Assembly (NCBI RefSeq): GCF_036373705.1
Contig: NC_089858.1
Span: 13,584,001 to 13,648,000, forward strand
Direction of reading: 5' to 3'
Origin: Amia ocellicauda
Lineage: Eukaryota; Chordata; Actinopteri; Amiiformes; Amiidae
DNA: 64,000 nt
Shown: in pieces, positions 8,396-58,300 of the stretch
Layout of the letters: the number at the start of each line of letters is the position of its first letter
Numbering within the stretch: position 1 is the first letter of the stretch
Program-made: the position numbers and the translations under genes
The notes under the pieces: model-generated
What the model saw: the letters and a program-made list of their open reading frames with translations, nothing else
Told to the model about the DNA's origin: nothing
Databases searched by the model: none

Positions 8396-8479
8396 CACTC
8401 TGCAGAGGGAGGGAGTGTGTGAGAGAGGCCCAAGAGAACAAGGGAGACGTTCTGTGCATCTGGGGAGAGAGAGAGGAAA

Positions 8480-8531
8480 AATATTTTATATATATGTATG
8501 TGTGTATATATATATATATATATTTATATAT
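8480..8531. repeat. (TA)n tract at Tc1 insertion point
   Basis: A tatata run directly adjoining the first Tc1 element. Tc1 elements insert at TA, and a second such run (about 9401-9412) separates the two Tc1 copies. Confidence 0.85.
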
Positions 8532-21837: not shown

Positions 21838-24800
21838 TCAAAGCGGGGGGGTGGTGGGCACAGCAGGGGGCACGGTGACAGGGTGCAGGCCCAGGTCCAG
21901 AGTGGGCGGCTCGGGAGCCGTGGGGGGGCTCTTCTTCTGGGAATCAAGTTTCTCGGTCAGCTGGGTGTACAGCTCCCTCACTGGTTCACTGCTCTGTGGG
22001 GGAGAAGGAGGTTTGAGACAGAGGCATGAGGACATGGACGGCGACAGGTATTGGGGGGCGGAGAGGGACAGAAAGGAGGGGAGATAACAGATGGACGTTG
22101 AGAAGTTGAGAGAAATAGGTGTTTAATAGTTGAAGATTTCATTTGAGAAGAGGAGGTGGGGGACAAAGCTGCTGAGAGATCTGTGGGACTATATATCTTC
22201 AGCTTCAAACTCTGCCCTGGACGCAAAGGCCAGTGCTCACTGGGTGCAGGTAAGCTCACCTGTTTGGGCGGCTCCAGGGTCTTGACGAGGGATTCCAGCC
22301 GGGACGGCAGCACTTTGCGGTGGAGATGCAGCAGCAGGCGCAGGGCGTGTCTGTGGACGTTCTCCTTACTGCACACAGAGCACAGCCTTTGACACTGACC
22401 ATACAGCTCAACACTCTCACGCTGACCGACAGACTCCCACACTCTCTCACTCCCCCACAGACACCCACCCACCCTCAGCATTGGTGCCGCTTATGGACTG
22501 ACCTGGAGAAGGAGGTAAGGAGGAAGCGGTCGAACACGGCACTGCAGAAATCCTCTGTGCCGAACTCCTCGGACAGCAGCGTCAGGTGACCCGTCAGCAG
22601 GTGCAGGAAGATGTCCCCAAAAGACATGTCATTGTGGGACTCCACTGGACAGAGAGAGAGAGAGAGATGAATATATGCATAAAGACAATCTAAGATGGAG
22701 AGGCAGGGGAGACAGAGATACAAAGAGAGAGGTATGAATATATGCAAAGACAATCTGAGATGGGGAGAGGAATGTGTAGATGAAGACATGGAAGGATACC
22801 GACAGGACTGGTCAGTGGGTGTGGGTGGAAGCGCAGGTCTCACCCAGCGCTGGCAGCAGCCTCTGCAGAGCGTTCTTGTTCCTGAGCTTGGCGATGTGCA
22901 GTGTGTAGTACAGGCCCATCTCACACGCCACACGGTTCTCCAGGAGCAGCCTGACACACAGAGAGAGAGACAGACATCACAGAAAAGCTCTTCTCCGATT
23001 TATGCTAGCACACAAGTCAGCCCATAAAGTACTGCAATCAGAATCTCCTACTGTACTTGGACACTCACGCAGATACACAAAAGTATCCATTACACACTGA
23101 CAGACTCTGACACTCACTCACACTTACAGAGAGACAGACAGAGACACAGAGACACACACAGAGTCAGAGGGGCCCTCACTTGCTGAAGGCCTCAGGTAGA
23201 GTGCTGGGGTAGGTCAGGCTGCTCTTCTCCTCGTTGGGCAGCTTCTGCTCCACAGTGAAGGTGTAGTCATCCACCACCACGGACAGCATGGCTGGCAGGA
23301 ACCGTGTCACCACCTCCAGATCCTGCACGGAGAGAGAAATAAATGAACAGAGAAAAAACAATTTATTGACTAAAGAACTGAACTTACTAGCCACCTAACC
23401 AGCTCTTGTGCCCAGTGCAGGCGGTGTTCTTACCAGGCGCGGCTCCTTGAAGACCTGGCTGTCAATCATGTCCCAGGCGCCCTGCCCCAAACACAGCATC
23501 CTGAGCAGCAGCAAGAGGTCTGGACTGTCCTGCACAGAGACACACACCCAAGGGATACACCATGAGGCATAGCACACGTGCAATACACTGTTTCCCTCAT
23601 CCCCTCTCCCTCCCTTCCTTCCATCCATCCATCTGCCCTCTACACCTGCCTCTCTCCCCACCCCTTCTCCATCCTCCTTGCTCCCTCCCACCAATCCCTG
23701 TCCCTGCCTTCCACTCTCACCCTGGGCAGCGCATCCTGGCCCAGCAGCTCCTGCAGGTTCCTCACAGTGCTCAGCACCAGTGTGTTACTGGCAAAGGGAT
23801 CACACAGGATCATGGACAGGTCCCTGCAGGGGAGAGAGAGACAGAGACACAAGTCACCCCTGGACATGGGGAGGGAGACAGCTATCCTCAACAGGGACAA
23901 GACTCCCACTGCATGGGATATGCTCATGAAACAAAAACAAATGTGTTTATATCTTTATGTATGCTCGTTTCACTCCGCCTCTTCTCCCCTCCCATCATCC
24001 GTCTCTCCACCAGGTTCATGTCAAAAGCCCACACCCGTGTCCACACTAATTCTGAAAGTTTTTCTTGACATAAGAGCAGTGAATGAGATGCTCTGTCTCC
24101 TCCTCTCTCTCTCTCTCTCTCTCTCTCACCCCAGCACTTGCTCCTGTCCTTTCTTCACTCCATCCAGGAAGCCCTGTAGCTCTCTCGCCCTCTTGGCGTC
24201 AACAAACTTCTCCCGGATACAGGCGTCCAGACACCAGGTGAACTTCAGAGGGGGTGACACACACACAGAGTTACACACTGTTTGTCATGAACTTTACAAA
24301 CGTGCACACATTCTACAGACATGAACAGGGAAGCAGATTTTCCTCTTCTACTCACAGGCTGACCTTATGGGACAGGGTCATCAGGGCAGGTCTACAGAAA
24401 GACACAGCAAGACACAGAAACATGCAGAGACATGAAGGGACCGACACAGATGCACACAGACGCAGGTTTGCGGCTCCCCGGCTGACCTTGTGGCAGGGGT
24501 CCACCGAGCAGATCTCGCTGATGTCCAGGTCGTGCAGAGACATCAGCAACTCGGCGCGCAGGGTGCAGTAGTGGACGTTGCGTGTGCGCAGGAAGAGTGT
24601 GCGCAGGAACTGCAGGACCATGTCGTACAGCTTCACGTTCTTCCCAATCATCTGTGTCAGCTTCAGCACCACCTGGTGGGCAGGAGACTTTACTTATAGC
24701 AGCTTGAGAGATAAGAGAGACTGTTGAGACACTGACACAGAGGCTGCAGAGAGAAACTCAAACCAAGACAATAACAAATTTAAAATAAATTAATTCACAG

Positions 24801-26568
24801 GCAGACATACATGTATACTTTGTATTTTATATTAATTGTACTTTTGTAATTCTTTAATTGAATGTTGTATGGATTTATAATACTGCACTTTTGTAATGCT
24901 TGTGTAAACTGTAAGTCAACCTGGAAAAAGCAATTATAATAACATGTACAACAAACACAGAGACACACAGAGACCCACGCACACAACCCCCCACTGACCT
25001 CCCCCTGGCGGCGAGTCTTGGGCGAGAGGCTGAAGAAGTTGTGCAGGACGGAGAGGTCGCTGCTGAACAGCGCCGCCTCCTTCTCTACGATGTACTGCTT
25101 GAGCAGGGGAGACACCTCGTCCCCAAACAGGGCCTGGTTATCCTGCCAGATCTGCCTCTTCACCTCCACCGCACACACGCTGTACAGCTCCTTGTCAGAC
25201 ATCACCTGCTTCAGCTTCTTCTCTGGGACCTGAGAGAGAGAGAGAGAACACAATTACTTATTTTGTAATTATGCTGATGTTGATGTAAGTGTGTGCGAGT
25301 TTGAGTGTGTGTCGGTTGGATTCGACAGATCTGTGTAATTCAAGAGCATAAAGACTTTCACTTCATATGCAGTGCGGTGGTTATCAGTTTTACATCTCAA
25401 GTATTGAATAACTTAAGCTTTAAACATACCAGTGTATATAGAGTAACCAGCCGCCAGACACGAGCATGCACAGGGGGTTATCTGCAGCCCCTTTTAACTG
25501 TTAGCCCAGGAGGTGTCCAGCACTCACCTTAGGCAGGTGTTTCATCACCTGCATGACGACTGGCTGTATCGATGGCATCTTCACCAGTGGGAAGCTTTTC
25601 TCCAGCAGCTCCTCCAGCTTACTGTACCTGAGAGAGAGGAGGGCAGGGGGAGACAGAGAGAAAACAGAAATATAATCTGAGCTCCGAACCCCTGCAGCTC
25701 TTGATACAGTCTGCTCCATGACAATGCATTTCGTTACTGTTATAATGAGACCTCAGCCTGAAGTCTTGATATTGACCATTTCAGTGCGTGCGGTGTCTCA
25801 GTTTCATCCAGCCTCATTTTGAGACCAGACTGGCCTAATTTCATCTCGTCCTGCTGTAGCGCCTCACCGATCCTCCTCCTTGCCCTCGGCGATGGTCGCC
25901 ACCCTCTCCATCAGCTTGTCCCGCAGCTCGTCGAACACGGACTGGTGGAACTCCAGGCGCGGCGTGCCGTGCAGGTCCAGGAAGGGCAGCGCGGACTGCA
26001 GCGACGGCAGCAGGACCCCATTCTCCGTCTACCGGGAAAACACACCGTTATCAACACGACACAGCGGGAACTAATGACCACAATAAGCAAAACTGCGTTG
26101 TCTTTTACGCTACCAAGTGCTGTGCTTGTCAATGCATGTTTGTGCAATATTGTTTTTAATTGTACGGTTTCTCCAGGCACGGTATAGTAAATAATGTGTA
26201 TTATTTAACCATACATGCATGCATTCAAGCATACACAAACATTTCAATACAGTGCCTATACCGGTGTGCATGCATGCATGTCGCCCTGAAACAAAAGTAC
26301 TGATAATTAGAAATAACTCGCACTTCACGGTAATCGTTTTCCCTTATTTTACCAATACTATATCCCCCTGCATGGCCGCATCGTTTCGTGCATGTCGCTA
26401 ACGTCCAGGCATCCCCTCTTGATGCGCACTGCTTATTTTATGATATTGTTACATTTCGGTGTGTACCTGAAACTGGTCTATGGCTTTCAGAGGCTCGGTG
26501 CAGTTGGTCAGGGTTTCCTTCAGGTCCTCGCCGTTCGAGATGCCCAGTTCGGGTAACCCAGCGAACAT
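21838..26568 (-). CDS. nelfb: Negative elongation factor B (NELF-B/COBRA1), 13 exons
   Basis: Encodes 582 residues (human NELF-B is about 580). NELF-B is the scaffold of the four-subunit NELF complex that, with DSIF, holds RNA polymerase II in promoter-proximal pausing in the nucleus. Coding exons on the minus strand: 26467-26568, 25868-26028, 25528-25627, 24999-25229, 24487-24672, 24130-24242, 23721-23823, 23434-23529, 23180-23322, 22844-22950, 22503-22644, 22260-22368, 21838-21993. All introns are GT-AG and every phase fits. Family landmarks: start MFAGLPELGISNGEDLKETL, then VKRQIWQDNQALFGDEVSPL, NVKLYDMVLQFLRTLFLRTR, GQGAWDMIDSQVFKEP, FGDIFLHLLTG, ENVHRHALRLLLHLH, and a Pro-rich C-terminus ending PAVPTTPPL. 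The start is the only ATG before the conserved N-terminus and lies in a GC-rich first exon. All introns are short, at most about 740 bases. Appears intact. Confidence 0.97.
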
Positions 26569-29328: not shown

Positions 29329-32300
29329 TCAGGGGTCAGGGTCAGAGACCTGTGAGGAGGAAGAGGAGGAAGGCTGGTGGTATGGCACGTCCGTTGGTCT
29401 GTCTGTACTTGATACCTGCTGTTGCTTTGCGCCCAGCTGTGACCCCTGTGGGTTCTGGGTGTCACTGTCCGAGCTGCTGAGCAGGGAGGGGGTCTCCTCG
29501 GGCCCCTGTTTTGCGGGAGCCTCCTCAGGGGGGGAGCAGTGGCCCAGCGGTGCTGGCACCCGCTCCTCCTCGTCCGTCTCCAGCAGCAGCTCGATGGTGG
29601 TGCTCTTGCCTGGCCCACCCTGCAGCCCCTCTGCCATCAGATCACTCTCGTCCGCCAGCCGGATCTTGATGTTCATTCCAAGCGGCCTCTCTGCCTTCCC
29701 CGCCTCTGCAAGGATGACACAGACAGGGCTGGAGACTGGGACATACCCACTGCCAACACACTGCCAACGCCAGTCCACATCCACTGCTGCATGCTCTCAG
29801 GCACTGGGCTGGTAGTGGCAGGCAGTGTATTTTCTATGGTTCAGTGGTTTCCACAAGAGTACCAAATTATGATGATGATCATAATAATAATCATCATAAT
29901 AATAGACAGATAGCTCCAAACAGGCGTCCAATATAATAATTAATAATCACCATCATTAATAAATCACCACATTAATAATCACCATCATTACTACTACTAC
30001 TACTAATAATAATAATAATAATCACAGCACCACCAGCATGTTGTCCTATGTAAAGGAGCGGTCAGTGTAGTGTTACCTCGGCCCAGATGGCGATCCCGGG
30101 GCAGCAGAAGGACGTCCACATTGCGGTGAGTGTCCAGCGCATCCAGCAGTATGGCGCCCTCACGCCTGAACAGAAAAAGCAGCGGCACAGTGATGTCCTC
30201 TGTCCCCCCGCCGTCCCCCACCATCTGGAACAGCGGTGTCTCTTCACTGCTGCTGCCCTCGCGGTGGTCTGGACAGCACAGGACAGGGTGTGAGACACAC
30301 ACACGCGACAACACAACCAGACAAGGCACACACCAGACACATGACACACAAAGTACAACACACTCAAGACGAGGCATTTCATAAAGAGTCTTTACAGAGG
30401 GGGCACCCTGACTAGTCGGTGGTACAGTGAGGGAAAAAAGTATTTGATCCCCTGATGATTTTGTACGTTTGCCCACTGACAAAGAAATGATCAGTCTATA
30501 ATTTTAATGGTAGGTGTATTTTAACAGTGAGAGACAGAATAACAACAAAAAAATCCTGAAAAACGCATTTCAAAAAAGTTATACATTGATTTGCATGTTA
30601 ATGAGGGAAATAAGTATTTGATCCCCTATCAATCAGCAAGATTTCTGGCTCCCAGGTGTCTTTTATACAGGTAACGAGCTGAGATTAGGAGCACTCTCTT
30701 AAAGGGAGTGCTCCTAATCTCAGCTCGTTACCTGTATAAAAGACACCTGTCCACAGAAGCAATCAATCAATCAGATTCCAAACTCTCCACCATGGCCAAG
30801 ACCAAAGAGCTGTCCAAGGATGTCAGGGACAAGATTGTAGACCTACACAAGGCTGGAATGGGCTACAAGACCATCGCCAAGCAGCTTGGTGAGAAGGTGA
30901 CAACAGTTGGTGCGATTATTCGCAAATGGAAGAAACACAAAATAACTGTCAGTCTCCCTCGGTCTGGGGCTCCATGCAAGATCTCACCTCGTGGAGTTTC
31001 AATGATCATGAGAACGGTGAGGAATCAGCCCTTGGACTTGGACTTGGAGAGGATCTGCAAAGAGGAGTGGGACAAAATCCCTCCTGAGATGTGTGCAAAC
31101 CTGGTGGCCAACTACAAGAAACGTCTGACCTCTGTGATTGCCAACAAGGGTTTTGCCACCAAGTACTAAGTCGAAGGGGTCAAATACTTATTTCCCTCAT
31201 TAACGTGCAAATCAATGTATAACTTTTTTGAAATGCGTTTTTCTGGATTTTTTTGTTGTTCTTCTGTCTCTCACTGTTCAAATACACCTACCACTAAAAT
31301 TATAGACTGATCATTTCTTTGTCAGTGTGCAAACGTACAAAATCAGCAGGGGATCAAATACTTTTTTCCCTCACTGTAAGTGTGGTCAGTCAGCTCGACC
31401 AGGCCTTACCGATGAAGATGATGCCGATGACCCCGGCCTCCTGCAGACGGCGAGCCTTGGCCGCGAACATGCAGTCCCCGCGCAGGGCCACACCCACACG
31501 GCCGTGCAGCTCCACCGCGTTCTCCAACACACTGCACGCACTGAACGGCACGCTACGTACCACACTGCCCTTCACCTACGGGGGGAGAGAGAGAGAGGGG
31601 TCAGAGGGTGAGGTCCCAGGGTCGTTGGGGGGGGGAGGTCAGGGGGCGAGGTAGAGGGCCTCTCACCCCGTGCTCCTGCTTGGTGAGGTCCATCCCAAAC
31701 TTGGCGGGTCCAGCGGTCAACACCGTCCTGCCCAGGAATGGGGGGGAGATGATCTGCACAGCAAGTGGCACCACTGCCTCCTCCTCCTCCTCGGTGGTCA
31801 CCTCCGCGATCAGCTTCACCCGGTACACCCCATTCTGAGAGGAGGAGGGCTCCTGTGATGTGAGGGAGAGAAGGGGGTAAGTGTGTGTTAGTGTGTGTGT
31901 GGGAACCCACATGTGGAGGCTGGGCGGTACTGGGTGGAGGTGCTGTACTCACCAGGGGCGAGCCTGAGCTGCTGACCCCCACGCTGCCGTCACTCAGTGG
32001 GGTCAGGGAGATGCCCATGCTCTTCAGGAATTCCATCGGCTCCATGCCATTGTCATGCAAGGGCAACTCAATCCCCCTGGAGAGGGAGAGGGCGGGACAC
32101 CATCAGTATTCAACATCAATCAAAATTAAACAAGCTGGGTGAGGAGAGCTGTGAGAGAGAAATACAGAGACAAGCAGACGCACACAGAGAGTCAGTGCAC
32201 GGTGCGTCTCTCCTCACCTGATCGGGGAAGAGGGCGGTGCAGCCCCGGCCCCTGTGAGGTATTTGTAGCTGTCACGGATGGTCTTGGCGAAGGAGGGGTT

Positions 32301-33308
32301 GTTGGGGAAGAGAGTCTGGGCGCTGGGGCAGGAGTGGGTGAACAGGTCGTCCTCCACAGCAGGGGGGCCATTCTGTGGTTGGGAAGGAGGGGGGTGGGTA
32401 AAGAACAGGACAGAACCGGGTCAGAGGCTGTCCCAGAGGACAGGCAGTGGGTTGGTTATCATTCTTTTACAGTCCCCTCACCGTGCGGTTGTGGCGGCAG
32501 GGCGACAGGGCGGTGGACAAGGACACGGGCAGCAGGTGGGCCTCAGTGGTGAAGACGTAGTGGTCGATGTCAATGGGCAGCTCACTCTTTTCCGAGAACA
32601 GCAGATACAGGTATTTGAACATCTCGGCCAGGAAGAACGAGTCCATCCTGGGGGGTTACATAACAGTTACCTCTTGCATAACCAGTGCATCACAGTGCGT
32701 CACAGTCAGGTTGTTCTGCCAATGCAGTGGCATTCATTTTGTAACTCTCGCAATCCTGATCCCTCCCCCTCCCCCTTCCCAGAAGGTGTTTTCCAGGTGT
32801 GTCTCCCTACCTGTCCTCATGTGTGCCGGTGCGGACGTCCTGCACGGCAGCAAAGCCACAGGGGACACGAGCGTGAGTGTTCAGCTTCTCCACAATGGAG
32901 CGGCCTACTCCCAGGTAGTGGGGGTCTCCGGTGGCCTGGGGGGAAGCACAGCGCACACTGACTCCTATCAGCCGGCCAACCTTGGTCAATTTACACTACA
33001 CGCACTTCTGACGCGGTTTAACTGTGGCCGTAACATTTGTCTTTACCACAGTTTCTCAGGGCTTCATTGTGCATTGCTACCCAGGACCATGGGAATAGCA
33101 CGGTGCGTCAATTTACACATCTCATTGATTGTGCTGTACTGATGCAGGAAAATCCAGCACGAGAAGACTGGACCACACAGACAGGAACTGCCATACCTTG
33201 TACAGGAAGTAGGTGCTCTCTGCAAACTCCGGCCTGAGGGGGTGCTGGCCCCAGTGAACTCTGAACTCTGTGGTGAAGGCCTGGCAGCAGACAGGTGGGA
33301 TTGGAGGA

Positions 33309-33339
<31 letters not shown>

Positions 33340-36300
33340 TTGAAGACTGGGGCATCACTAGCTGGGTTTGACCCACAGACCCATCCCACAGTCCAGCATG
33401 GCTGCCACCTCACCTCCGGCAGGAACTTGTGCTGCTTGGTGACTTGGTACAGCATCTCGTGCGTCTCTATAGCAGGCTTCAGATCCCCCCTCAGCACCTG
33501 AAACACAGACAGTCTGTTTAAGAGAGCTGGAGCTCCTAGCCTACCTTTCACAGCTCAGGCTAATTCCCTACAGGCAGTATTGGTCAAACAGCTCCATGAC
33601 AACCTGGAGAGTTTCTCTACAAAACTGAGCAGATGTGCAGTCTGGGAAAATCTCCAGCAAAAACACTTACTACTACTACTACTACTACTACTACTGTATT
33701 GATAGATTTATATTAATAATATTTATATCATAATAAGTCAGGTACCAGATTACTGTATCCATGATGACATTTTTTTTTACAAAGTAACTCAACATTCCAC
33801 ACACAGCATCACTGCAAAACACACACACAGATGCACATGCACATATGCATAAAGTAGTCACACATCATTATACACATAGATGGGTGTCTCTAGCAGGGAG
33901 CAGGCAGGGGGCCGGGGGGCTGTACCTGCAATCCGGGGAAAAAGGCGAGCAGAGAGTCCATCCAGCTGCGCACGCTGACCGTGGGGTTGTGCATGTGGAC
34001 GCTGAGCAGCAGGGGGGGCTGGCTGATGTACTTCATGATGGCAGCGTAGTGCTGGAGGAGAGAGATGCACAGAGACGGGGAGAGAGAGAGAGAGATTAAC
34101 AGGAGTAAGCGCATCACGCACTCCCTCCCTCCCTCCCAGTCTCCGTCACACATCTCTTTCTATTATGGTCTCTCACACAGGCTTGTTAAGTGAGAAAGGC
34201 TCTTGTTTAAGGAATAGGCCAGAAGAATTAAAAATGTCTGTAAACATCCCTGAGGAAACTTACAGTGTTGAATCTCTCCAGGTACACATCATCCCCCAGC
34301 AGGATGTAGGCCTTCATCAGGTACTCGTAGTACGAGTCAATGCCTGCTCCCACTCCACTGTCTGAGAAAGAGGGAGGGAGAGACAGAGAGAGAGAGAAAT
34401 AATACATCAGAAATGCCAGTGCACAGTACAATGCATTCATGTACAACCAAAAGCCCCTGGAGCAGAACTCAGACAAGAAGGAAAAAAAAAAAAAAAAAAA
34501 AAAGGCAAACCAAAAAATTAAATGTAGACGAATCAAAACTAGATAAGAAAATTAAAGAGTGAGAAGAGGAGTGGGGTGAAGGGGATGTGGCCTGTGCTCA
34601 CCCCTGCGGACCCAGTCCCCATTGTGGATGTTGATGACGGTGCCCACGAGGTCACTGCCCCTCTGTCTCTTCTCCCACAGCACATCCAGAGCCCTGCGTG
34701 CTTGTTCCTATCACATCAGCAGAACACACTGAGTCAATACTCCACGCACACAAACTGGCGCAATACACCACACACATGCACACATACATCCACCCACGCT
34801 GGGTCAACACACTATGCACACATGCACCCACACACAGATTTAACACACTACACTTTTGCAGGCACTCTCGCCTCGTGCGGTACCTCGAACACGCTCTCCC
34901 CTGATAGCCGGCTGAGCGCTGCGAACTCCAGGATCATGGTCCCTGCGCAGGCCGTGCAGGTGTCCGACTCCGTGCCTGTGCGGGACAGCGGGCTGAGGAC
35001 CCCGTGGCGCAGGTTCACCTGGAGAGCAGGGAGTACAGTGAGCACCTGGACAGCTGAGCACCTGTGTGATGCTGAATGTCCTACTAGGAGAGACTGAGGG
35101 AACTGAACCTTTTCACCCTGGAACAGAGGAAACTACGTGGGGACTTGATTCAAGTCTTTAAAATCATGAAAGCCATCGACCACATCAACCAGAGGAGTTT
35201 TTCCAGATCAGCAGGGACACACGCACAGCATTCAAGACGGAAAACAGGAGACACTTCTTCACACAGAGAGTTGTCACAATCTGGAACAAACTCCCCAGCG
35301 ATGTGGTTGAAGCTGAAAATTTGGGAACATTTAAAAATAGACTGGATAGGATCCTTGGATCACTTAGTTATTAATGGACACCAAACGAGCACAATGGGTC
35401 GAATGGCCTCCTCTCGTACGTAAACTTTATGTTCTTATGTCAGTGCAGAGCTCTCTCAGCCCCCCAGCTTTCACTTTCACAGACCCTCAGCGTTCGTCCC
35501 CGCCACCCCCACCCCCCACCCACACTCTCATACTCCATAACCGGCCAGTCCGCAGGGTGGAATCTTTCCCCATGTTCTCCTTAGGTCAGAATTGGGGGAT
35601 ATTTATGAATTTCTTAGCAGATGCCGTTATCCACGGCAAATTACAGTTTAGACAAGAATACCCACTACCATTCCTACTGCCACCCCCATTCCCACTATTC
35701 ACACCTCCTCCTCCCCTAACACCCCGCCCACCCCCCTAGAGTTACCCGAGGGTACGGCAGGCCGCTGGTGGTGTTGAAAGCGGGCAGCAGGCGGTGCCCC
35801 AACTCCCGGGCCATGTGCAGCAGCTCGTCCCGGTACCAGGCCATGTGCCCCTCTGCCCGCTTCCGCAGCATGTCTGCCATCACGTGCGCCCCCAGCAGGC
35901 CTCTGTGGGAACAGCAGGTCAGCCGGTTACTCCAGTCTGAGGCAGGTCAGCAGGGGGGCAATTTCATACCAGCGTGCAGGGAGAGGGCAAGGTCTCGATT
36001 TGGTTTCCAGAATGGACAAGCCTGGCAATGGAAGGTTTTAATAAGGTTGCGGCTGCGTTGCCACTGGGTTAACAGGATCGAGAGTTAGCTCTGTATGGGG
36101 CCTAGCTGGACATTGAGCTGTGGGCTGCGGTTGTGGTTCAAGGCTGCCGTTTGTGTTTAACATGGGGCCGGTAACGCACTGCTGTCACACAATGCTGTCT
36201 AGGTTTTGACAGAGACCCGGGACACTGGGATAACGCGAACACCTCGTACCCCAACACGCGGATGTTGGTCTCGAACACGGAGACCACAACGTCATTGTCC

Positions 36301-38549
36301 AGGCGCACCTCCTGCACCACTCGACGCACCCCCGCCTCAAACTCCTCCAGCTTATTCAAAACCTGAGGGAGAGGGAAAGGGAGACTGAGTGGTACACAAC
36401 AGTTACAGAGAAAAATAAATATACGTCATCTACAGCAGATAAGGAACAAGGACTCACCACTAATGTGTCCAGGGTGTCGATGAGGGTGAGAGAGAACCTG
36501 TGAGCACAGAATAGTTATTTTATGTATTATATTGTATGTATTGTACAGCAGCACATGGCACTGTACTGCACTGCACTGTACTACACCGGGAGGCTCTGTG
36601 GACGTACTTGCCAAGCGAGTCGTCAATGTCTCCACGGTTTGGCTCCAGCCCACGCACCCTCCCCCTGCAGCTCAGCGGCATGAGCTCGTCCGCTGGGTAA
36701 GCGTATTTCTGAGACACACAGAGAAACCAAGACAGAGAGAGAGAAACTTTAGAGTTTTTAATCAAACTTTATTAACAATGCATTACGAAAACAAACAAAA
36801 CACAAAAAGATACCCAACAAGCAAAACTAACCACTCACAAGAAAAAACACAAATGGGAGAGAAAGAGGAAGCAAGGAAGACAAAAAATTACAGAGAAAGT
36901 GAGTTTAGTAGGACTGTATTGTTGTTGTTAGTTATCAGGCAGATCACTCACCATGTAGCTGCCGTAGGCATGATCGAACATCTCCACAATCTGGTCCCTG
37001 AACACAGAAAAAAAAACACAAATCAAACCTTCCACAATCAACACCAATTGATCAATCAAAAACAAGCACCATCCTCTCAGAGATGCAATGTACAACACAG
37101 ACACTCCAGAGCCCTCGGGTTCACACAAGTCCTTAGGTTCCCCCCCCACCTCCTCCACAGGCACACGCACACAAACTCCAAGCACAGCTGACAGGAGATG
37201 AAAGCCTCTAAAAAGCCTCGTTCACAGCCTCTCCTGTCTCTTCTGCTGAGCATCTCCAGTAGGCCCTGCAGCTCACAGCACACATGGGCATCTGCACATG
37301 CAAGGACACTGGGCTTGGTGGGGGGGGAAGGGGGGGGCTGGCAGTCAAATGGAAACTGCAGGACCTCCACTTAAGGAGAAATCAAATTAAAATGATTGTG
37401 CATTTACACCACAAGCCTGTTTACAAATTGTTAATTTACTTCTTCGCATATAGTTTGTTTAAAAAGCATTCCTGTGCCCAACCACAGTCTGAATATCTCA
37501 GAGGTGCATGCTGTGCTGTGCTGTGTTGTTGCATTTGCTGTAATAGGACTTTTTTTCTTTGCTTGTGCTGCGGGGAAGGTGACTCAAACTTTGGGGAAGT
37601 CGCAGAAAGTTAAGTGGGGAAAGGGGATGCAACTGAAATAGCCTACAGTGCTAAAGCATGCCTGGCACTAGAACTCATAGAACGCCAGATACAGGCCGGA
37701 CACAGGACTCCTCGGCACACAGGACTCCTTGCAGGACCAAACCTGACAATCCCTACTTTCCGAGACATGAACACTCAGTACCGCAGATGTTCTCAGGCGA
37801 GCACAGACTAGCCCTGCCCAGCCTTCGATACCCTCTCAGCACTGCAGACTCAGACACACTACTTCACTCACAAACACAGGTCCAATCCCAGCTTCACTGA
37901 GACAGGTGCAGTCATTCTGTGCAGAAGCCAAAGTCAGCATGGTAGAGATTATAGACAAAAACTATCCCGTGAAACAGACATTCAGCCGTTTCCACTTCTT
38001 TAAGTGTGCAGCAGAGCAGAAAAGAACAGCTTGAGGACGGGCTGAGTGTTTTTAGCAGCAAACCAACAAACACAGACAGGCAGACAGGAGTGAGATAAGT
38101 CCTGCTGCCTTCAGCTACCCCCAGACTGCCCCTAAATGCCACAGCAGGATGCGGGGTGTTGTATACTCGCTCTTCCTTCATTGTACTCTTGTACTAATTG
38201 TACTAATCTCATGGTGTCCTGTTGTCCTCAGGCTGTACAAGCGCTACGAGATCGTGCTCAGCCTGAGAAAGGGCGCTATATGAAACTGGAAAAAGATCGA
38301 CTGGTTGAACAGCCTAGGTTTCTGGCAAATGGTTTAAAATGTAATTTCATATACCAAAAAATAAACAGAAGTATGTGTATACATGTGGCAAAATATGACG
38401 CACAATTCACACCTGATTAGTGGCCGGATATCAGGTTTCATGTCTTACCGGATTTTCGACTTCTCCTCCTTCGACATGGACCGGACCTGCAGCGGGCAGA
38501 CGGTGCACAGCGCGGAGACGAGCAGGACCCACTTCTCAAATACTCCCAT
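29329..38549 (-). CDS. EDEM3-like ER degradation-enhancing alpha-mannosidase, 20 exons
   Basis: Predicted 893-residue GH47 mannosidase of the EDEM3 type, which trims N-glycan mannose on misfolded glycoproteins in the ER and commits them to ERAD. Exons: 38449-38549, 36952-36997, 36608-36708, 36458-36497, 36250-36362, 35746-35902, 34884-35018, 34602-34707, 34264-34361, 33926-34051, 33414-33497, 33197-33280, 32811-32935, 32482-32647, 32218-32372, 31953-32076, 31667-31852, 31410-31575, 30077-30268, 29329-29705; all phases fit. A signal peptide starts [15 protein letters not shown]. The GH47 domain (about 36-490) includes [20 protein letters not shown] (catalytic Glu about 127), [18 protein letters not shown] and [21 protein letters not shown] protease-associated domain (about 620-755) includes [17 protein letters not shown] and [10 protein letters not shown]; this domain marks EDEM3 rather than EDEM1 or EDEM2. 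The tail is Ser/Pro-rich and ends SQVSDPDP with no KDEL, unlike human EDEM3 (932 residues, ends KDEL). Neighbours are 9q-type genes, so this is probably an EDEM3 ohnolog. Confidence 0.93.
29865..30025. repeat. (ATC/AAT/TAC)n trinucleotide-rich tract in EDEM3-like intron 19
   Basis: Interspersed ataataatcatcat, ccatcattaata and tactactactaataataata runs, low complexity. Confidence 0.9.
30425..31376 (+). mobile_element. Second copy of the Tc1-like family, internally deleted (952 bp)
   Basis: CAGTG...CACTG with TA on both sides (30423-30424 and 31377-31378). The inverted ends, inner and outer aagtatttgatcccc boxes and the TATA palindrome match the 9417-11005 copy. It is 637 bp shorter because the central transposase region is missing. 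It sits in EDEM3-like intron 18 (30269-31409), opposite to the host gene, 33 bases from the splice donor side of exon 18. Confidence 0.97.
30792..31169 (+). CDS. Shortened Tc1 transposase frame: DNA-binding part fused to C-terminus, no catalytic core
   Basis: 125 residues from [20 protein letters not shown]. The first helix-turn-helix ([20 protein letters not shown]) and the start of the second subdomain are kept up to [10 protein letters not shown]. The frame then joins to [17 protein letters not shown] and runs in frame to the natural end NKGFATKY. All three DDE residues are gone, so it cannot cut DNA. It still has a start, a promoter palindrome 10-130 bases upstream and a stop. Whether it is expressed is unknown; it may simply be a young deletion derivative. 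Confidence 0.75.
33669..33699 (+). repeat. (TAC)n microsatellite
   Basis: Perfect tactac run of about ten units in an EDEM3-like intron. Confidence 0.97.
35076..35441 (+). mobile_element. 3' end of a CR1/L2-type LINE
   Basis: A degenerate end of a reverse-transcriptase ORF reads [20 protein letters not shown], then (in other frames) the thrffrtRK-FFTQRVV and WNKLP-type pattern, followed by gaatggcctcctctcgt and ttatgttcttatgt, a 3' end I know from fish CR1/L2-like LINEs. Truncated at the 5' side as is usual. Lies in EDEM3-like intron 6, opposite to the gene. Confidence 0.75.
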
Positions 38550-43200: not shown

Positions 43201-43811
43201 ATAGATCCGTCTCTTTGTGTGCATGTCTCTGTGTTGTTTTTATCCCTTTCGGTGTGTGCATCTCTATGTTGTCTGCGTTTTCCCAGGCATGCTGCTGTCA
43301 GTGTTCGTGGTGCTGCTCTTCACAGTGCTGTACGAGCTGCTGAAGGTGTGGAAGCTGTGGTTGATGGAGAGGTCCCTGGCTAGCAACCCGGCCTCGCCCC
43401 AGGGCAGCAACACCGCCCTCACCCAGGCCACCTCCGAGACCTCCCTGCCTCCCGCCGGACACAAGTACAGGTCAGTATAACACAGGGCAGTGTAATATAG
43501 TACAAGTAGGCTCCAATCCAGTGCAGAACAAGACTGTACAGTGTGGTGTAGTGCAGGAAAATCGAGTGCAGTACTGCATTACAGGCGAGTCTGTCAGTAA
43601 CAGAATGCTGTGTGCACATCTGTGCGTCTGTCTGTGCTGCAGGTGGGTGCTGCTGTACTCCCTGCAGGCGGCGGTCCACGTGGTGCAGGTCACTCTGGGC
43701 TACATGCTGATGCTGTGCGTGATGTCATACAACGTATGGATCTTCCTGGGCGTCATCGTGGGCTCTGGGCTCGGCTACTTCGTGGCCTTCCCCCTCCTGC
43801 GTCTGCCCTGA
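40020..43811 (+). CDS. slc31a2: Low-affinity copper transporter 2 (SLC31A2/CTR2), four exons
   Basis: 142 residues (human 143). CTR2 is a small three-helix copper transport protein of endosomes and lysosomes that affects copper release and the processing of its partner CTR1. Coding exons: 40020-40028 (MMP, nine bases), 42526-42592, 43287-43470, 43643-43811; phases agree. The N-terminus is short (MHFEDSSSVTLLFDFWNVHG) without the Met/His-rich copper-binding repeats of CTR1, as expected for CTR2. Helix 1 follows at GGMLLSVFVVLLFTVLYELL. Helix 2 holds the MxxxM motif (MLCVM in GYMLMLCVMSYNVWIFLG). Helix 3 has the packing motif GSGLG, ending FPLLRLP. The loop between helices 1 and 2 is Ser/Thr-rich. 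A second ATG directly follows the first, and a third begins exon 2, so initiation could also occur at MHFED if exon 1 differs. Confidence 0.95.
40262..40306 (+). repeat. (TG)n followed by poly-G
   Basis: tgtgtg run merging into about 13 G in slc31a2 intron 1. Confidence 0.95.
40741..41206 (+). repeat. Pair of diverged direct repeats in slc31a2 intron 1
   Basis: About 125 bases at 40741-40865 (gtgacctgaaaccatgtta...) recur at 41084-41206 (gtgacctgaaactatgttg...), including tacagcaaaca and tctagacttngt blocks. The copies are clearly related but diverged, about 343 bases apart. Confidence 0.85.
41438..41593. mobile_element. MITE-like element with inverted ends
   Basis: Starts cagtgctgaacccc...ctggtcctgga and ends tccaggaccag...gaggaacactg, imperfect inverted repeats around about 100 AT-rich bases. 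No coding capacity. A partial related end (ccccaggaccagggctgtgagcc) is at about 41753. The pattern is one I know from fish interspersed repeats; no family name is given. Confidence 0.6.
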
Positions 43812-49337: not shown

Positions 49338-52300
49338 TTAAATGGTGGTTGGCTGCACTGGCTCGCACTCCGGCGGACTCCCTTTCCCAGAATCCTCCGC
49401 TCCGGTCTCCACTTCCTTGGGCTCCAGTGTCACTTCCACATTGGCTGGGTCCACAATGGTATCTCCCGCCCCCTGAGGGGCTTTGCTGACTGTCTGAGCC
49501 TGTTCCTCCACCTCCACGCTGGCGGGGGACTGGAATTCGCTGTCATCGTGGTGATGGTGGGAGGAGCTGGAATCGGCAGGGGCAGGCTGTGACAACTCGG
49601 CAGGGGAGTCTACCAACACCTCAGCGGACTCCTCTCTCTCCCTCTCTTTCTCCTGTTGCTGTTGTTCTTGTTCCTGACTGGGTGGTACTGTTGCCTCATG
49701 CTCCTGTGCCACACTCTCTGCAGATGGTATGCTCTGGGCCACTTCCTGCACCACCTCCTTCACCAGTGGTTCGGTCTTTGCCACTTTCTGGACTGGGGAC
49801 TTGGTGGGCGGCACGGCGCCATCCGTGGCTTCCTGCAGCAGGTTTCCATTGGCGAGATGAGGGACGTCAGCGCTCAGCAAGGACACCTGTACCTCCACTT
49901 TAGGGCTGATGAGGTTGCGGATCTCGTGCAGACAGTCGGGGGACTTGGGGTGCTCGGTGTCCTCGCTTGGAACCCCACCTCCACTCTGTGGCCCCATTTC
50001 CTGCTCCTCCGGGATGCCCTCCACCCCGGGCACCTCCATGCAGGACTCATTGGGCAGCCCAGTACCCTCCAGCTGGATCATGGACACCACCTGCTTGCCA
50101 CGCCTCCTGCGGCCATGTTCGCTGCCATGCCCCGCCGCCTCCTCTTCCGCCGCGAACTCCGCCCCCCAGTCGATGGACGACCCCTCGGCCAGCAGGTGCA
50201 GGTTGGGGTCACTGTTGGTCAGGACGATGCTGTCGCGATACAAGTTGTGCCTCCTCTGCACTGCCGCCTCCTTCACCGCTGTAGGGAGAGAGGTGAGAGG
50301 AGAGAGACAGTTACAAATCAACCAGCAGTACACAGCCCTGCTACTGGAGAAAGAGAGAGACAGACAGAGCTGGGCAGCTATAGGTGCCAATCAAATCGCT
50401 TGCTCTCTCACTCACCCTGCATAATGTCCTTCATCACAGACTGCAGCACCACCTCCTCAAAAATGTTCTCCAGCAGGATATACTTAGAGAAGTCCTCGAA
50501 AATCAGCTCCTGGAAGTGAGCGAAATCCTGGAGGGAGGAGGAGGGGAGAGAGGATTGTTGTGATTACCGAGTAAAGGCAGCTGTTGATAAATACAAAGAA
50601 TGGTTCATTCATTATAGGGAGTTCAGCCCAACATTTGAAAACAGTGTTTCTCTGTCGCTCTTACAGGCTTGCAGGTGGGGGAGAGCTGCTTCAGCATGTA
50701 GGGGATGATGATCTGCAGCAAAGCCTCTCTGAAGAACTTCTTGCGCACAGTGCTGCTGTCATAGTCATATTTCTGCCATTGAGAGGGAGAGGGGAAAAGA
50801 TGGGAAAAATAATGAATAACAAGGAATACAAAAAATACATCAATACTTTTGCAGAAACCTTTCCTATCTATACCCCAGCACACTCTACAGCCCCTCACCT
50901 TGAGGACTCTCTCCTGGCAGCGCTGGATGCTCTTGCACAGTTCCTCCCCCCCCTGGCTCTCCAGGCTCTGGTGCAGCAGCTGCTCGAAGGTGTACATGGC
51001 ATTGTCCATTTGCTGTGGACAGACAGAGAGGTATCGCAAAGTTATTACAAATGCCCTGAGAGATCATTACCACAATCCGCCACAAGAGGGCGATAGTGCT
51101 TTTCTTATAGACTGTAACCAGGCTGTGTAGATGCAGTACAGTGCAGTTCAGTGTAGGGCAGGGTAAGACGGGCCTGCCAAGTCCTGCCCCCCCCGCTCTC
51201 ATCAGCCAGTTCCCTCTGCGGCCCAAAGGCGAGTCTGCATTACACATCTCAGACCTTTACCACCGTCAGGGTGTCTTAACCTCCCCACGACCCGCAGCCC
51301 CTGACCTGCGCAGCCCTGCAGTTTCCAAAGGCAAACAGCAACACGTCCTCATATTAGACTCTCCAAGAGGGAGGATGATTCTACTGCAGTTTCAATCCAG
51401 GGCTGCAGACCCTGCTGTGCTGAACTCTTTTGCCAGTCATGGACTTGGGTTCACGGGGGTTCAGGGTTCAAGGTTCACCTCTCTCATGAGGATCTGGGCT
51501 CTCTGCATGAACACTGAGGGGCTGGACACATCGAAGCGCTGCTGCAGCCCCTCCAACTTCAGCTCCTCCATTTTCTCATAGCAGCTCTGCATCTTCACCG
51601 GGTGGAACGCCAGCATGGACGCCTTCTCCATGTGCTGGACAGAGGGAGGGAGAGGGTTAGAAAGACATAGGATGAGCCCTGATGGGAAGAGGGGGAGGTT
51701 GGGGAAAATGCAGAGAGGAGAAAGAGAGAGAGATGGAAGGAGCAAGAGAGGCAGTCTACAAGAACAGAGACCAAAGTTCCCTCTCCCCACTCACCTCCCC
51801 CAGCTTCTCCCGGCTGCCGTCGTTCAGCACGTTCTTGCTCATGTCCACCAGCTCCCTGAAGAAGACGTCCCTGACCTCGGCGAAGCCCCGGCTCGTGGGC
51901 TCCATCAGCGCATCCAGGATGGACGACACATATGGCTGCACACTGAGCTTCAGCAGCTGCTCGGCCCGCGGCAGCACCAGGGCTGCAGGGACACAAGGAC
52001 AGAGGGACACCGTCAGGCAGAGAAAGACGCACGGTCACACAGCGGGTGATCGGGGCGAGAGACGAGGACGAAGAAACCGGGATGGAGAGACGGGCATCCT
52101 ATACTAAAGGAAGTCCCATTTATTTGTCAGAAGTACAGCTCCGATGGCTTTTAAGTTTAAGTTAACTCATTTCGTCCCAGGAGCATGGGTGAGGTGGGGC
52201 GGGGCATGGGCGGAGCTAATCAATGACATCACACAGCCGGCACCCACATGTCTGTGAGGGGGAATGCAGCTCTTCTGCATTCCTGCTGGCAGTGAAAACA

Positions 52301-55300
52301 AAGAAGGACAAACGCATGGTAACACTCACACGTATAAATCCCCTGATGGTCCGAAACCAAGTCTCCTCGAGTGCCGCAGGAGACGAGACGAAGGACAGGT
52401 GGAGCATGTTCGATCTCACTGGCCAAATGCCATGACAAAGTATGTGACTTCTGTAGAAGCTTTACCACCCCCTCTTTCCCTTATTTCTCAAACCTGTGCA
52501 TATTTTATTTTATTTCATTTTTTTTACCTAAAAAGGCTGCCATGTCCTCGCTCGTGAGTTTGAGTAAATGCATGTGTTAGTGTGGTGCACAGAAAGGGAC
52601 AGAAGGAGACTACAAGCAGTCTGCCATGGCAGGCGGTAGGGGGCAGGTACCCCGGATCTTGTTGGCCACATGCTCCTTGGAGGTGATGATCTGGTCCATG
52701 TCTGTGCGGATGGAGGCCTCCAGCGGGGGGCGCTCTGCCTCGCACAGCTGCAGCACCGCGGTGTACTGAGCATTCGCCTGATTCTGCACCATAGAGTACA
52801 CTGCATCAGAGATCTGCAGGGAGAGAGGGTCAGTAAAAGAGTTGTGTAATACAGCCAGGAGAGATTTTTGACTTCAAACTTTGTTTTTCTCGTTTATATT
52901 CATTAGCAAAAGTGGGGAGACGCTAATGGTTCAGTTGGGAACTGAGAGGGATAGATGTTTTATGGTTTAATTCAGTGTTTTCCATCCTTATTTATAGATT
53001 ATTTTATAGCCTCACTCCTGTGCAGTAATGCATTTTGAAAGCTTTGGCTATACTGGAGCATTCCGGGCATGCCTATGAAGCTCATTTGAATTTTAATTTG
53101 ATTTGAGAGATCGAGGGAAAAGGGTGGGAGAGAAGCAGAGAGACACAGAGAAAGGGAGGGTTGTGTCCACTTGCCAGCATCCAGTTCCTCTGCCTCTCTG
53201 TGCTCTTGCCCTTCAGCCTGGGGCCAATCAGGCCTCTCAGCTCGGGCTGCAGATCCTCCATCACTAGGTTGGCTAGAATCTGTGGACATAAGTGGGACAC
53301 AGACACTGAACACATGCAGCCACTGCCAGGGGGCACAGACACACACATTGGTTGGTTCTTTTGGAGGAGGGCAAAGTCTTGCCATTGTTGGAGAGAAAGA
53401 GTGAGCGAGCACAAGTGAGCGCATGTGTGAGAATGAAAGTGACTGTTTACAAAGAATGCCTGCCCAGTGACCCACAGTCAGAGGACATCCCTCCCCCTGC
53501 TCTCCCTCCATCTCTCAATGAGATTTGAGAAGTGGTTGTGCAGGCTGTTCCTATAGGCACCTATGCTGTTCTATATATGTATGCATGTGTGTTTTTTATT
53601 ATTTGATTTGTCAGCTGTTCAGTTTTCCATCCCCAGCTCATTAGCTGCAGTATTGACAGTGAGGGCTGGAGAGAAGTGGAGAAGAGACCAGGAGAGGTTA
53701 TATTAGCCCTAATGCAGAATGAACTGTAACAAACGACACCCCTACCCACAGTACTGGTTTACTGCACATTGTACTGGTTTTAAAAGTGCGCCTATTCCAG
53801 GACTAAACACTCTCACATGATTGCATTTACAGAGGCTCTGACAGTAACATATTAATACACACGGACATACAACACACACACACACACACACACACTGAAG
53901 CAGGATGTTTGCACAACCTGTGTGGAGAACTCAGTACAGCAAAAACCTAAATAAATAAACACCCATGACCTGAGGAGTCTCATGACACAGCTTCATCAGT
54001 GAAAGGACGCCAATACGCCCTAGGCCTTACACAACCTCCTCTACCACACAGTATCACACCACACCGCACGTCTATTAAAAGTGAAGTCCTGTGCTTCAAA
54101 CGGACCTCCTGTCCGGACAGGTTCACAATGACAGCCTTGCGGTCACCATAGTCACCCCCTCGCACACAGGACCTCAGCTCTCCTGCTCCCACCCAGTAAG
54201 AGCAGGACAGACCCACGCAGATCCACCCAGCCCTGGCAGAGAGGGCGGGCACCACAGACTGACAAAGTGGTTTAGTTGGTCAGAGAGTTAGCTGTTCGCA
54301 TGGTTATCTAGGTTTGTTAGGGTCACTGGCAAGGCTGAGAGAAGTCAGTCTCTCTCGCTCTCTCGCTTGCTCTCTCGCTTGCTCTCTCGCTTGCTCTCTC
54401 GCTTGCTCTCTCGCTTGCTCTCTCGCTTGCTCTCTCTCGCTCGGCAGTGTAACTCTCGACTGATATCCACAGTGTGCCTTACAGTGTTCAGAACCACACA
54501 GAGCTGTGCCAGGCCGTACTAGCGCTGGCATGTCCCTGTGGGTTTGACTGGGCACAGTGCTGTTCACCAATCACTGCCACAGATTCATTTATTCCTTTAA
54601 ATTTAGTTATTTAAAAAGTGCAGCACACAGCTCTGACCTCAGCACTTCCCTCTTCCCTGAGTCTCAACATCCCGTGCACACAACCACAAAACCCCCCACC
54701 CTCCCTCACCATCTAGCAACCCCAACCATGAGGTCACTCTGAGATGGCATGACTGATGAGTCACAAGGCCTATTTCAGGAGAATGAGCTAATGTACTATA
54801 ACTATAGGGATTTTTCTTTTCTTTCTCTGCCCCCCCTTCCTCTTTAACGCAAAAGAGAGCTGCCCTGCTCACCCCCTGAATACTGGCGATACCAGCTCAT
54901 CTCGCCATTTCACTTCAGTCATTTACCTTCCGCACCGTTTGCTAGCTTTAAAAGAATACTGCACTGCATTCTATAATATCATTGTGAATAGCTAGGTGCT
55001 GGGTTGTCTCTGGTCCCAATGCTGCGGCGAATGCAGGGGGTTAACAGCAGCGCAGAGCAGCGCAGCTCTGGGATCACGCAGGTATGAAATGGCGCCTGCA
55101 GATTGACTATGTTTTTGGAACGGCACGCCAAGAACCGGAATGCGCAGAGGTCAGAGTTGTGCATTCCACATTCCACTGATACCTGTCAGCCTCGCATCAC
55201 TGCCTGCACTCACTCTCCCACACACACAACTTAAACACTCCCCCCCTCAACACTGGCCAGTGAGATACAATGGGCTGCATTGAGAAGACTTTGTTAGCAC

Positions 55301-58300
55301 CTGTTTTTTTCTGCTCATTAGGAAACGGTCAAATAACACTTCCCAGAGTGTCAATTTTCAGTCCAAGTGATTGAAATGCTTCAGTGTAATGTCTCTATTT
55401 CTCTCGATTTACCATGTTTAAGTTTTATTTCTAAGCATCCCCGGAGTGCAGGAGGACGGAAGGTCTGTCGTCATACCAGTAGCGTTCTAGAACACCCTGG
55501 CTCCCTGCGCCAGGCTGAGCTGGGCATGGCAGAGCACCCACAGCCCACTGAGAGACTGCATGTGTCACTACACTGCCACTGCTGTCGGACACAGCACTTC
55601 ACAACACACAGGTACACAGAGAGGGAGAGGGAGAGAGGATTCCTCTATTTGGAAACTGCACACGTGTGAGTGAGTTTGAGTGCAGGCATTTTATCTTTTC
55701 ACAAAAGCAGTTGGGCTTTTCTTACTGCATTTTAATATGAATATAAATCTCAGTGCACTACACATGAATGTGTATTCTCTCTCATGTCCCGAGGCTCACC
55801 ACGCTACCCTCACCACCTCGCTCTGCCTCTCCCCCTCATGTAAACCAACAGGTAGCACAAATGGGGTCCCGAGCCGGCAGGATTCCTTCAACCAGGAAGT
55901 GAAACGCAGAGTCATTGTCTGAATCATAGTTTCCCTAAAGCACACATGAGAAACCTGTCGAAAGCCACAGGCCGGCGACTGCATGTCTGAGTCCTCTTCA
56001 GGCTCAGGTGACCAACGGGTGGAAGAACACCAAAACAATAAGTCTAGTTCTGCAAAGCCTCACCCTGTGATGGATCGCACTCGCTGCGGTCACCGTGGCA
56101 GCTGAACTCAGCAGGAGGAGAGGCCGGTACAGCGGACCTCGCCACGGCTCAACACAGGAGCTCCACTGAGACACGCGTCCGGTTACTCTGCCCGAGTGTG
56201 CGTAGCTGTGATTGTGTGCCTATGTGTGTGTGGCCGTCTGTGTTCTGTCCGATTTCCATCTGTCAGCCAGCTACGGCCCTTACCTGTGTGGCATCTCCAC
56301 ACATCATATCCCACGTGCCATACTGGTCCTTGGCCTGCCGGTAGAGCCGCACAGCGTCTGTAAAGGCGGGTGTCTGAACCTTGCACTCCTCCGACAGCCC
56401 TGCAGGGGGATGCAGAGAGCAGGGGTTACACAGAGCACAGTACAGTACAGTCCAGTCACACTGGGCCTACAATACAGTACAGTCCCAGAGTGTGCAGTAG
56501 CATACAGACCACAGCATGAAAGCTCATTAACCCTCACTAAAAACTCATAAATCTGTTTAATATCTGTGCAGCCATCAGCTTCTTTTATTTGTCATATAAA
56601 TACTGTATATGTATATGTGCATGTATATTTTTTTTTTCCTCTTTTTCTCTCAACCACGAACACCAAACCACTGAACAGGAAGTGCCTCACCCCTAACCCC
56701 CCCACTGCCGGAACACCCTCGGTTGCCATGGCCACCTCTCTGGCTGATAACAATAGCAGACTTGCAGCAAATTACAGAAAAAAAACTATGAAACAAGCAA
56801 AATAAAATTTCAGGAAGCCCATGCTTCTGTGTGGGTTAGTTATACAGCAGGGAAAGAAATGCCCTGAAGGGACAGAATTTCCTAAAATTAGACATGTACT
56901 TTTGTTTAGTCCCAACTGCTCTTGAGCTGGTTGTCGACGATTTTGCGTTGTGCGATTGTATTGCCTCACGTGCAGAGGTTATTGTGTACAGCCGAGACAC
57001 GAACCCCCCCAACAGACACCGAGTTTACTTTTTTTGTGTGTGCGTGTTTTGCAGTCTGTATCCGCTGACCTTGGAATTACAGGAAAGGCCAGTGGGTATT
57101 TTGATTGCTCCCTGTATATCAGCATATGCTCTCTGGTACCTGGGGGTCTGTGTGATTTTCTCTCTTTTCCTATCAGTCTGATATAGTTGAAGGTCTGGAC
57201 ACTTAGGCTATCCTAGTGGGGGTGTAACTCAGCACACACTTGCATGTCAGCAGCTGGGGACAGTTGGGTCCTGGTGGCGGTTATTACTGGAATATTCAGA
57301 AAAATCGGTAGGCTTGAATATACCTGCCTTATGCTTGACTCAGCCACAACCATCATAGTATCTTAGTCAGCGAAACGAGAGAGGAAGACCTCTACAGTCC
57401 GCCACCCCCCCTCCCCCAAAACACAGACAGACTACACCCCCAACCAAGACACAGCCCCCTCTACGCTTTAGACACAGTGACGCGCTTTTCCACAGAGCAG
57501 AGGGGGGAAAATAAGAAGTACGAGTAAATAAATGCTGTGTTTTTCTTGGCTCCCTCTCATGAGAACATATTTGTGGTTAAAGAAAGAAAATGTCCAGGGC
57601 TGACTGACCCTCATATTAAAATAAGGGGGGGAAGGGTATTTGGGAAAAATAAGAAAAATAAATGGCCCTGGTTTTATTTCCTCCAAGAACACCATCTCTT
57701 ACATCACTTTCTCCCCCTGGGGGAACTGGGGCATTGTGCTCACTTCCGGAGTTGTCACACACACACACTCGCATGCTCCAACACAAAACAATACGCAGCA
57801 CAACAATACTGCAACCAAACATGTGGTTCATGAGCACAGCACAGATAGACACGCACAGAGTCCGAGATGCTCACAGTCCGAGAGGTAAGTGATGAGGCTA
57901 GACTGGAGAAGCTCCTGGGCCGAGCAGCCTGCTGCAGGCGCCTCACACTTGGAAGCACTTAACATACTTGGAATTACTGTGTGTGTTACACTCAGTACTC
58001 AAGTGATTCCTGCACCCCCCATCAGCCCCTTGTTCACCACGCTAAATTGGCATGTCGATCTTGTAGATTTCTTTGCCCGCCTGCCCGCCCCCCCAAAACA
58101 GCTAGGGTTAGAACATATATACTCTAACATGCATCTTCCTCCCAGGGCTGTAACCGTGTCTGTGGTTCACCTGCATCTCACCATTCTCTGCCCTGCTCTG
58201 ACCCCAGTATACACAGCCCACTCCTCCAATACCCATTCATTAGGTCAATGGGTCTCTCCCCCTTCCCCGACAGGACAGCCTCACTCCTACACCAAGGCAA

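Follow-up and report, generated by a model that had tools for sequence, protein, structure and literature searches.

The genome of the bowfin Amia ocellicauda carries, besides an EDEM3 gene on a chromosome resembling human 1q25, a second gene of the same class in the 64,000-nucleotide stretch analysed here (the window). We call it EDEM3L, and put the probability at about 0.86 that it is a working second EDEM3 and the 9q34-side ohnolog of EDEM3, derived from the early vertebrate genome doublings. An earlier note on this DNA had proposed an EDEM3-like gene paired with NIBAN2 and dating from those doublings; its facts were right and so, very probably, was the origin that it gave, which is backed by the second copy on chromosome C25, by the paralogon and by four hox13 loci.

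EDEM3L lies on the minus strand between an ATG at 38549 and a TGA at 29329, as an intact gene of 20 exons and 893 amino acids. The exon limits in Table 1 were picked by eye from the sequence; the exons read as one stop-free frame, with GT-AG at 19 of 19 introns. Pfam finds GH47 at residues 40 to 480 (E = 1e-120) and, after it, PA at residues 650 to 744 (E = 3e-10; PF02225 at 40.5 bits versus a cut-off of 23.9), so that the EDEM3-type gene with a PA domain read earlier from the letters stands, over exactly this ATG-to-TGA span. In an alignment to human MAN1B1 chains, E127, D275, E387 and T473 of EDEM3L fall on a glutamate, an aspartate, a glutamate and a threonine of MAN1B1, of which we take the first three positions to be catalytic and the threonine to serve calcium. 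Both cysteine pairs described for EDEM3, C83-C442 and C226-C229 in the accessible text of PMC7926307 (section 2.2), are kept as C63-C423 and C207-C210. Intron 18 contains, at window 30400-31400, what looks by eye like the remnant of a Tc1/mariner-type transposon, with a related copy at about 9600-10800.

Table 1. EDEM3L and its neighbours, in window coordinates
Feature	Position	Strand	Remarks
EDEM3L exons 1-5	38549-38449, 36997-36952, 36708-36608, 36497-36458, 36362-36250	-	
EDEM3L exons 6-10	35902-35746, 35018-34884, 34707-34602, 34361-34264, 34051-33926	-	
EDEM3L exons 11-15	33497-33414, 33280-33197, 32935-32811, 32647-32482, 32372-32218	-	
EDEM3L exons 16-20	32076-31953, 31852-31667, 31575-31410, 30268-30077, 29705-29329	-	
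EDEM3L exon 1	38449..38549	-	Signal-peptide-like N-terminus, by-eye reading of the translation
EDEM3L exons 2-14, GH47 mannosidase domain, aa 40-480	32482..36997	-	Pfam PF01532
EDEM3L exons 15-17, intermediate (IMD) region	31667..32372	-	Strongly diverged from the C25 copy
EDEM3L exons 18-19, PA domain, aa 650-744	30077..31575	-	Pfam PF02225
EDEM3L exon 20, terminal	29329..29705	-	Ends ...SDPDP, without KDEL
nelfb (COBRA1), tandem downstream neighbour of EDEM3L	22842..26568	-	Starts at the ATG at 26568; lowest family match taken as lower end
slc31a2-type copper transporter, frame with the C-terminal end	43365..43811	+	Pfam PF04145 (Ctr)
niban2, upstream neighbour of EDEM3L, same strand	49338..62405	-	Limits approximate

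The class of the gene is given by a protein search of the genome. Among the 44 exon matches, those past query residue 485 lie only in the window and at C25:26585758-26592992, which assigns EDEM3L to EDEM3 and not to EDEM1 or EDEM2, and at the EDEM1-, EDEM2- and MAN1B1-type loci nothing but the GH47 part is matched. The names of these other loci (EDEM1-type on C3, EDEM2-type on C4, MAN1B1-type on C9 at 13.19 Mb) are our assumption. A GH47 family search returned 43 matches at 8 loci or more; such searches score the best candidates only, so all copy numbers from them are lower bounds. The gene on C25 encodes, in 21 exons, 899 amino acids with a KDEL end. It is 64% identical to EDEM3L across 757 aligned positions; introns 1-19 of the two agree in order and phase in 19 of 19 cases and 12 of 18 internal exons are equal in length, making EDEM3L a DNA-level duplicate. 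EDEM3 (at 1q25.3 in human, on C25 here) and EDEM3L share the domain order GH47, intermediate region, PA and acidic tail, but EDEM3L is on the 9q34-type chromosome, lacks KDEL, closes with a single last exon in place of the two of C25, and is without the second intermediate-region cysteine that is present in C25 EDEM3 and in the human EDEM3 sequence used here. EDEM2 and EDEM1 are likewise GH47 mannosidases of ER-associated degradation (ERAD) and are also not known to end in KDEL, but on C4 and C3 the PA part is unmatched in the genome search and their sequence is distant from that of EDEM3L. None of 16 PDB sequences examined bears the EDEM3 name, and pattern scans of viral and genome contig collections (2, 87 and 81 pattern matches) confirmed no EDEM3 relative there, which limits the trees below to five sequences.

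How EDEM3L has changed differs by region. In GH47, 357 of 463 columns are identical between EDEM3L and C25 EDEM3 and 386 of 463 between C25 and human EDEM3; in PA the counts are 88 of 154 and 116 of 154, and in the IMD 36 of 120 (30%) and 93 of 120. The human sequence in these counts and in the trees was not taken from a database record, and is the only EDEM3 used from another named species. Over 737 columns with that sequence, EDEM3L is the distinct one in 162, human in 48 and C25 in 27; 433 are identical and in 67 all three differ. A KDEL-bearing exon for EDEM3L was sought downstream as far as nelfb and not found. One KDEL end at 20426 was rejected as too far out, past nelfb, and a stretch at 27239-27222 that matches six residues of C25 exon 20 as chance, since a stop closely precedes it in frame and no splice acceptor adjoins it. 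According to the accessible text of PMC7926307, the mannosidase domain of EDEM3 requires the IMD, both PA and the disordered tail have a modulating effect on degradation, and KDEL dictates ER retention. Set against these roles, the kept GH47, the diverged IMD and the missing KDEL indicate that EDEM3L retains the enzyme and alters the parts that steer it. What is new here is that EDEM3L has no KDEL end, barring an unseen splice form, and that its intermediate region is strongly diverged.

The neighbours nelfb, slc31a2 and niban2 had been named already in the earlier note, and each is recovered, by COBRA1/NELFB, by the Ctr copper transporter family and by niban2 pieces. That the transporter is slc31a2 rather than slc31a1 is our presumption, and niban2 is a name we carry over from the human protein. 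In the genome search the niban2 pieces match the window locus best, then C25, then C7; a fourth match on C23 (E = 0.71) was set aside as weak and containing internal stops.

Chromosome C9, which contains the window, is 9q34-like, in accord with the 9q-like, niban2-linked neighbourhood claimed earlier. On it are all seven COBRA1 matches among those listed, an SLC31A2-type gene, niban2, a MAN1B1-type gene, a COLGALT-family gene at 10.9 Mb and, 194 kb from EDEM3L, npdc1, with all three NPDC1 matches among those listed. Chromosome C25 is 1q25-like: it has niban1 pieces at 19.16-19.17 Mb, rnf2 at 19.188-19.192 Mb (which PDB names RING2), a TRM-family gene at 19.195 Mb, npl adjoining EDEM3 (PDB 6arh, E = 2e-23) and a COLGALT-family gene 48 kb from EDEM3. 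We take human 1q25.3 to carry NIBAN1, RNF2, TRM-family, NPL and COLGALT-family genes, with EDEM3 and NIBAN1 as neighbours. The C7 set is 19p13-like: a third niban, matched by just one piece of 49 aa (E = 3e-4), the third COLGALT-family locus, which lies 28 kb from that niban, and, at 0.35 Mb, the second of the TRM genes. The niban and COLGALT families thus have members on C25, C9 and C7 and the TRM family on C25 and C7, these genes being paired with human names by their position and by what is known of the human genes rather than by trees. In the accessible part of PMC1578592, 1q-9q is the largest paralogy region of the human genome, within a 1q/6p/9q/19p set. Given this paralogy and the gene sets of C25 and C9, two members of a single paralogon each carry EDEM3 in linkage with NIBAN.

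The earlier prediction of a second EDEM3 near niban1 and rnf2 held in part: the gene exists and shares their chromosome, but is not adjacent to niban1. C25 EDEM3 is at 26.59 Mb and niban1 at 19.16 Mb, 7.4 Mb apart, and EDEM3-npl is kept as in tilapia, where the accessible text of PMC3276181 gives the LG23 order RGL1-GLT25D2-C1orf21-EDEM3-NPL. For other fish, PMC5297860 gives, in its accessible part, the synteny edem3-npdc1-pou5f3-fut7a-clica, and places human NPDC1 and FUT7 on chromosome 9. We take this npdc1-linked fish edem3 to be EDEM3L, by its map position. A search of the window for a POU domain found none, giving two weak matches only (E = 0.20 and 0.43).

Three other accounts of EDEM3L have to be weighed, the most distant being a teleost-specific (third-round) duplicate. 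Many fish genes are of that kind, but here the chance is close to nil. Teleosts have more hox13 genes owing to their extra duplication. With a HOX13 homeodomain query not taken from a database record, and with 150 of 157 candidates scored, this genome has hox13 at four loci on four chromosomes (C10, C7, C3 and C22; 81-97% identity), the next match being at 60%, which rules out the teleost duplication as the source of EDEM3L; the genome is probably that of a ray-finned fish without it. No extra pairs are seen, with at least 3 loci for niban, 2 for TRM, 1 for COBRA1, 1 for NPDC1, 3 for COLGALT and 8 for GH47, and the two EDEM3 chromosomes are of different types, C9 9q-like and C25 1q-like. For npdc1, both duplicates are kept in the teleosts analysed, according to the accessible text of PMC9492771, and one locus was found in the bowfin among the matches listed. 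It is also highly improbable that EDEM3L is a decaying pseudogene or makes no working enzyme. Its branch is long, its IMD has little in common with the C25 copy and the KDEL end is gone, but 893 stop-free residues, 19 GT-AG introns, the conservation of GH47, the catalytic positions, both cysteine pairs and a dN/dS of about 0.33 to EDEM3 (dS being rough) argue against decay.

It is unlikely that EDEM3L arose from EDEM3 by a later, lineage-specific duplication in ray-finned fish and came to lie beside niban2 by chance. The raw dS of EDEM3L and EDEM3 is 0.82, below the values of the calibration pairs, which are MAN1A-type pairs taken as 2R pairs by assumption (1.67, 1.72 and 2.61, a fourth not computable). 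Dating by raw dS was dropped because GC3 is high in both genes (0.82-0.88), and codons were permuted within residues instead. On this measure the synonymous identity of EDEM3L and EDEM3 is 0.14 above chance (z = 4.3), where the MAN1A-type pairs have excesses of 0.17, 0.02 and 0.09 and the six values obtained against older genes (EDEM1, EDEM2 and MAN1B1) range from -0.07 to 0.10. The pair is near saturation, the permutation hints that it is not older than the calibrators, and synonymous divergence leans, in part and faintly, toward a younger age. The AU, KH and SH tests reject no topology in any tree run, the lineage-specific one included. With the bowfin EDEM1 and EDEM2 as outgroups, a tree from 453 GH47 columns favours (EDEM3L,(C25,human)) at AU 0.94 versus 0.096 and 0.07. 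Earlier trees, now superseded, had C25 outermost, as (C25,(human,EDEM3L)), with a FastTree support of 0.89 and AU values of 0.89 and 0.905 on two column sets; their outgroups were mapped through the C25 query alone, and the 1000 resamplings behind the two AU values are too few according to the program. The origin case for EDEM3L stands on the synteny and the hox13 count. A lineage-specific copy would have to land within about 11 kb of NIBAN, on the same strand and with EDEM3 downstream, as in the human order, and to carry the same introns as C25 EDEM3. The 9q-linked edem3 of the teleost maps in the accessible part of PMC5297860, if the same gene, would also make EDEM3L older than the split between teleosts and bowfin.

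For the ohnolog reading that we prefer, the history would begin with a COLGALT-EDEM3-NIBAN block before the doublings. All three members would have survived on the 1q25-type copy (a COLGALT gene, EDEM3, NIBAN1) and on the 9q34-type copy (a COLGALT-family gene, EDEM3L, NIBAN2), and two of them, a COLGALT gene and NIBAN3, on the 19p13-type copy, which has no EDEM3. EDEM3L would then have been retained in ray-finned fish and be absent from mammals, an absence based on humans having, to our knowledge, EDEM1-3 only. As to function, EDEM3L presumably enters the endoplasmic reticulum, where its GH47 domain may trim alpha-1,2-mannose off misfolded glycoproteins and so mark them for degradation, with the PA domain binding substrates or partners; from its sequence we infer this trimming and feeding of ERAD. 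Without KDEL it might be held by a partner, or act further along the secretory pathway. TXNDC5/ERp46 binds EDEM3 covalently and activates it, according to the accessible text of PMC11049379, and by analogy a partner such as TXNDC5 could keep EDEM3L in the ER. A bolder proposal, which we consider doubtful, is that EDEM3L is a second EDEM3 class, lacking KDEL-based ER retrieval and with its IMD rebuilt, that would perform mannosidase quality control beyond the ER or be secreted, a role lost in mammals.

Parallel cases from this paralogon set are POU5F3/POU5F1 and NPDC1/NPDC1L: in the accessible parts of PMC3665618 and PMC9492771 they include, like EDEM3L, 9q34.3-linked members of unevenly lost pairs, but they are different genes and, unlike the second EDEM3, have a published history. 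In a literature search on EDEM3, no title or visible abstract start mentions two EDEM3 genes. EDEM3L is very probably an unremarked ohnolog, a sound but ordinary kind of finding to which the lost KDEL adds some interest. It would be one further uneven loss in the 1q/9q/19p paralogon and, as a naturally KDEL-less EDEM3 whose intermediate region differs, would offer a direct way to probe the roles of those parts. If the finding is true of fish in general, the EDEM genes of ray-finned fish number four and not three, so that fish ERAD experiments on 'edem3' may hit either of two genes. Elsewhere in the window, positions 1692-3695 have open frames that look by eye like a Gypsy-type retrotransposon polyprotein, and positions 7349-8485 on the minus strand hold a single-exon rhodopsin-type GPCR frame of 348 amino acids from its ATG (Pfam 7tm_1).
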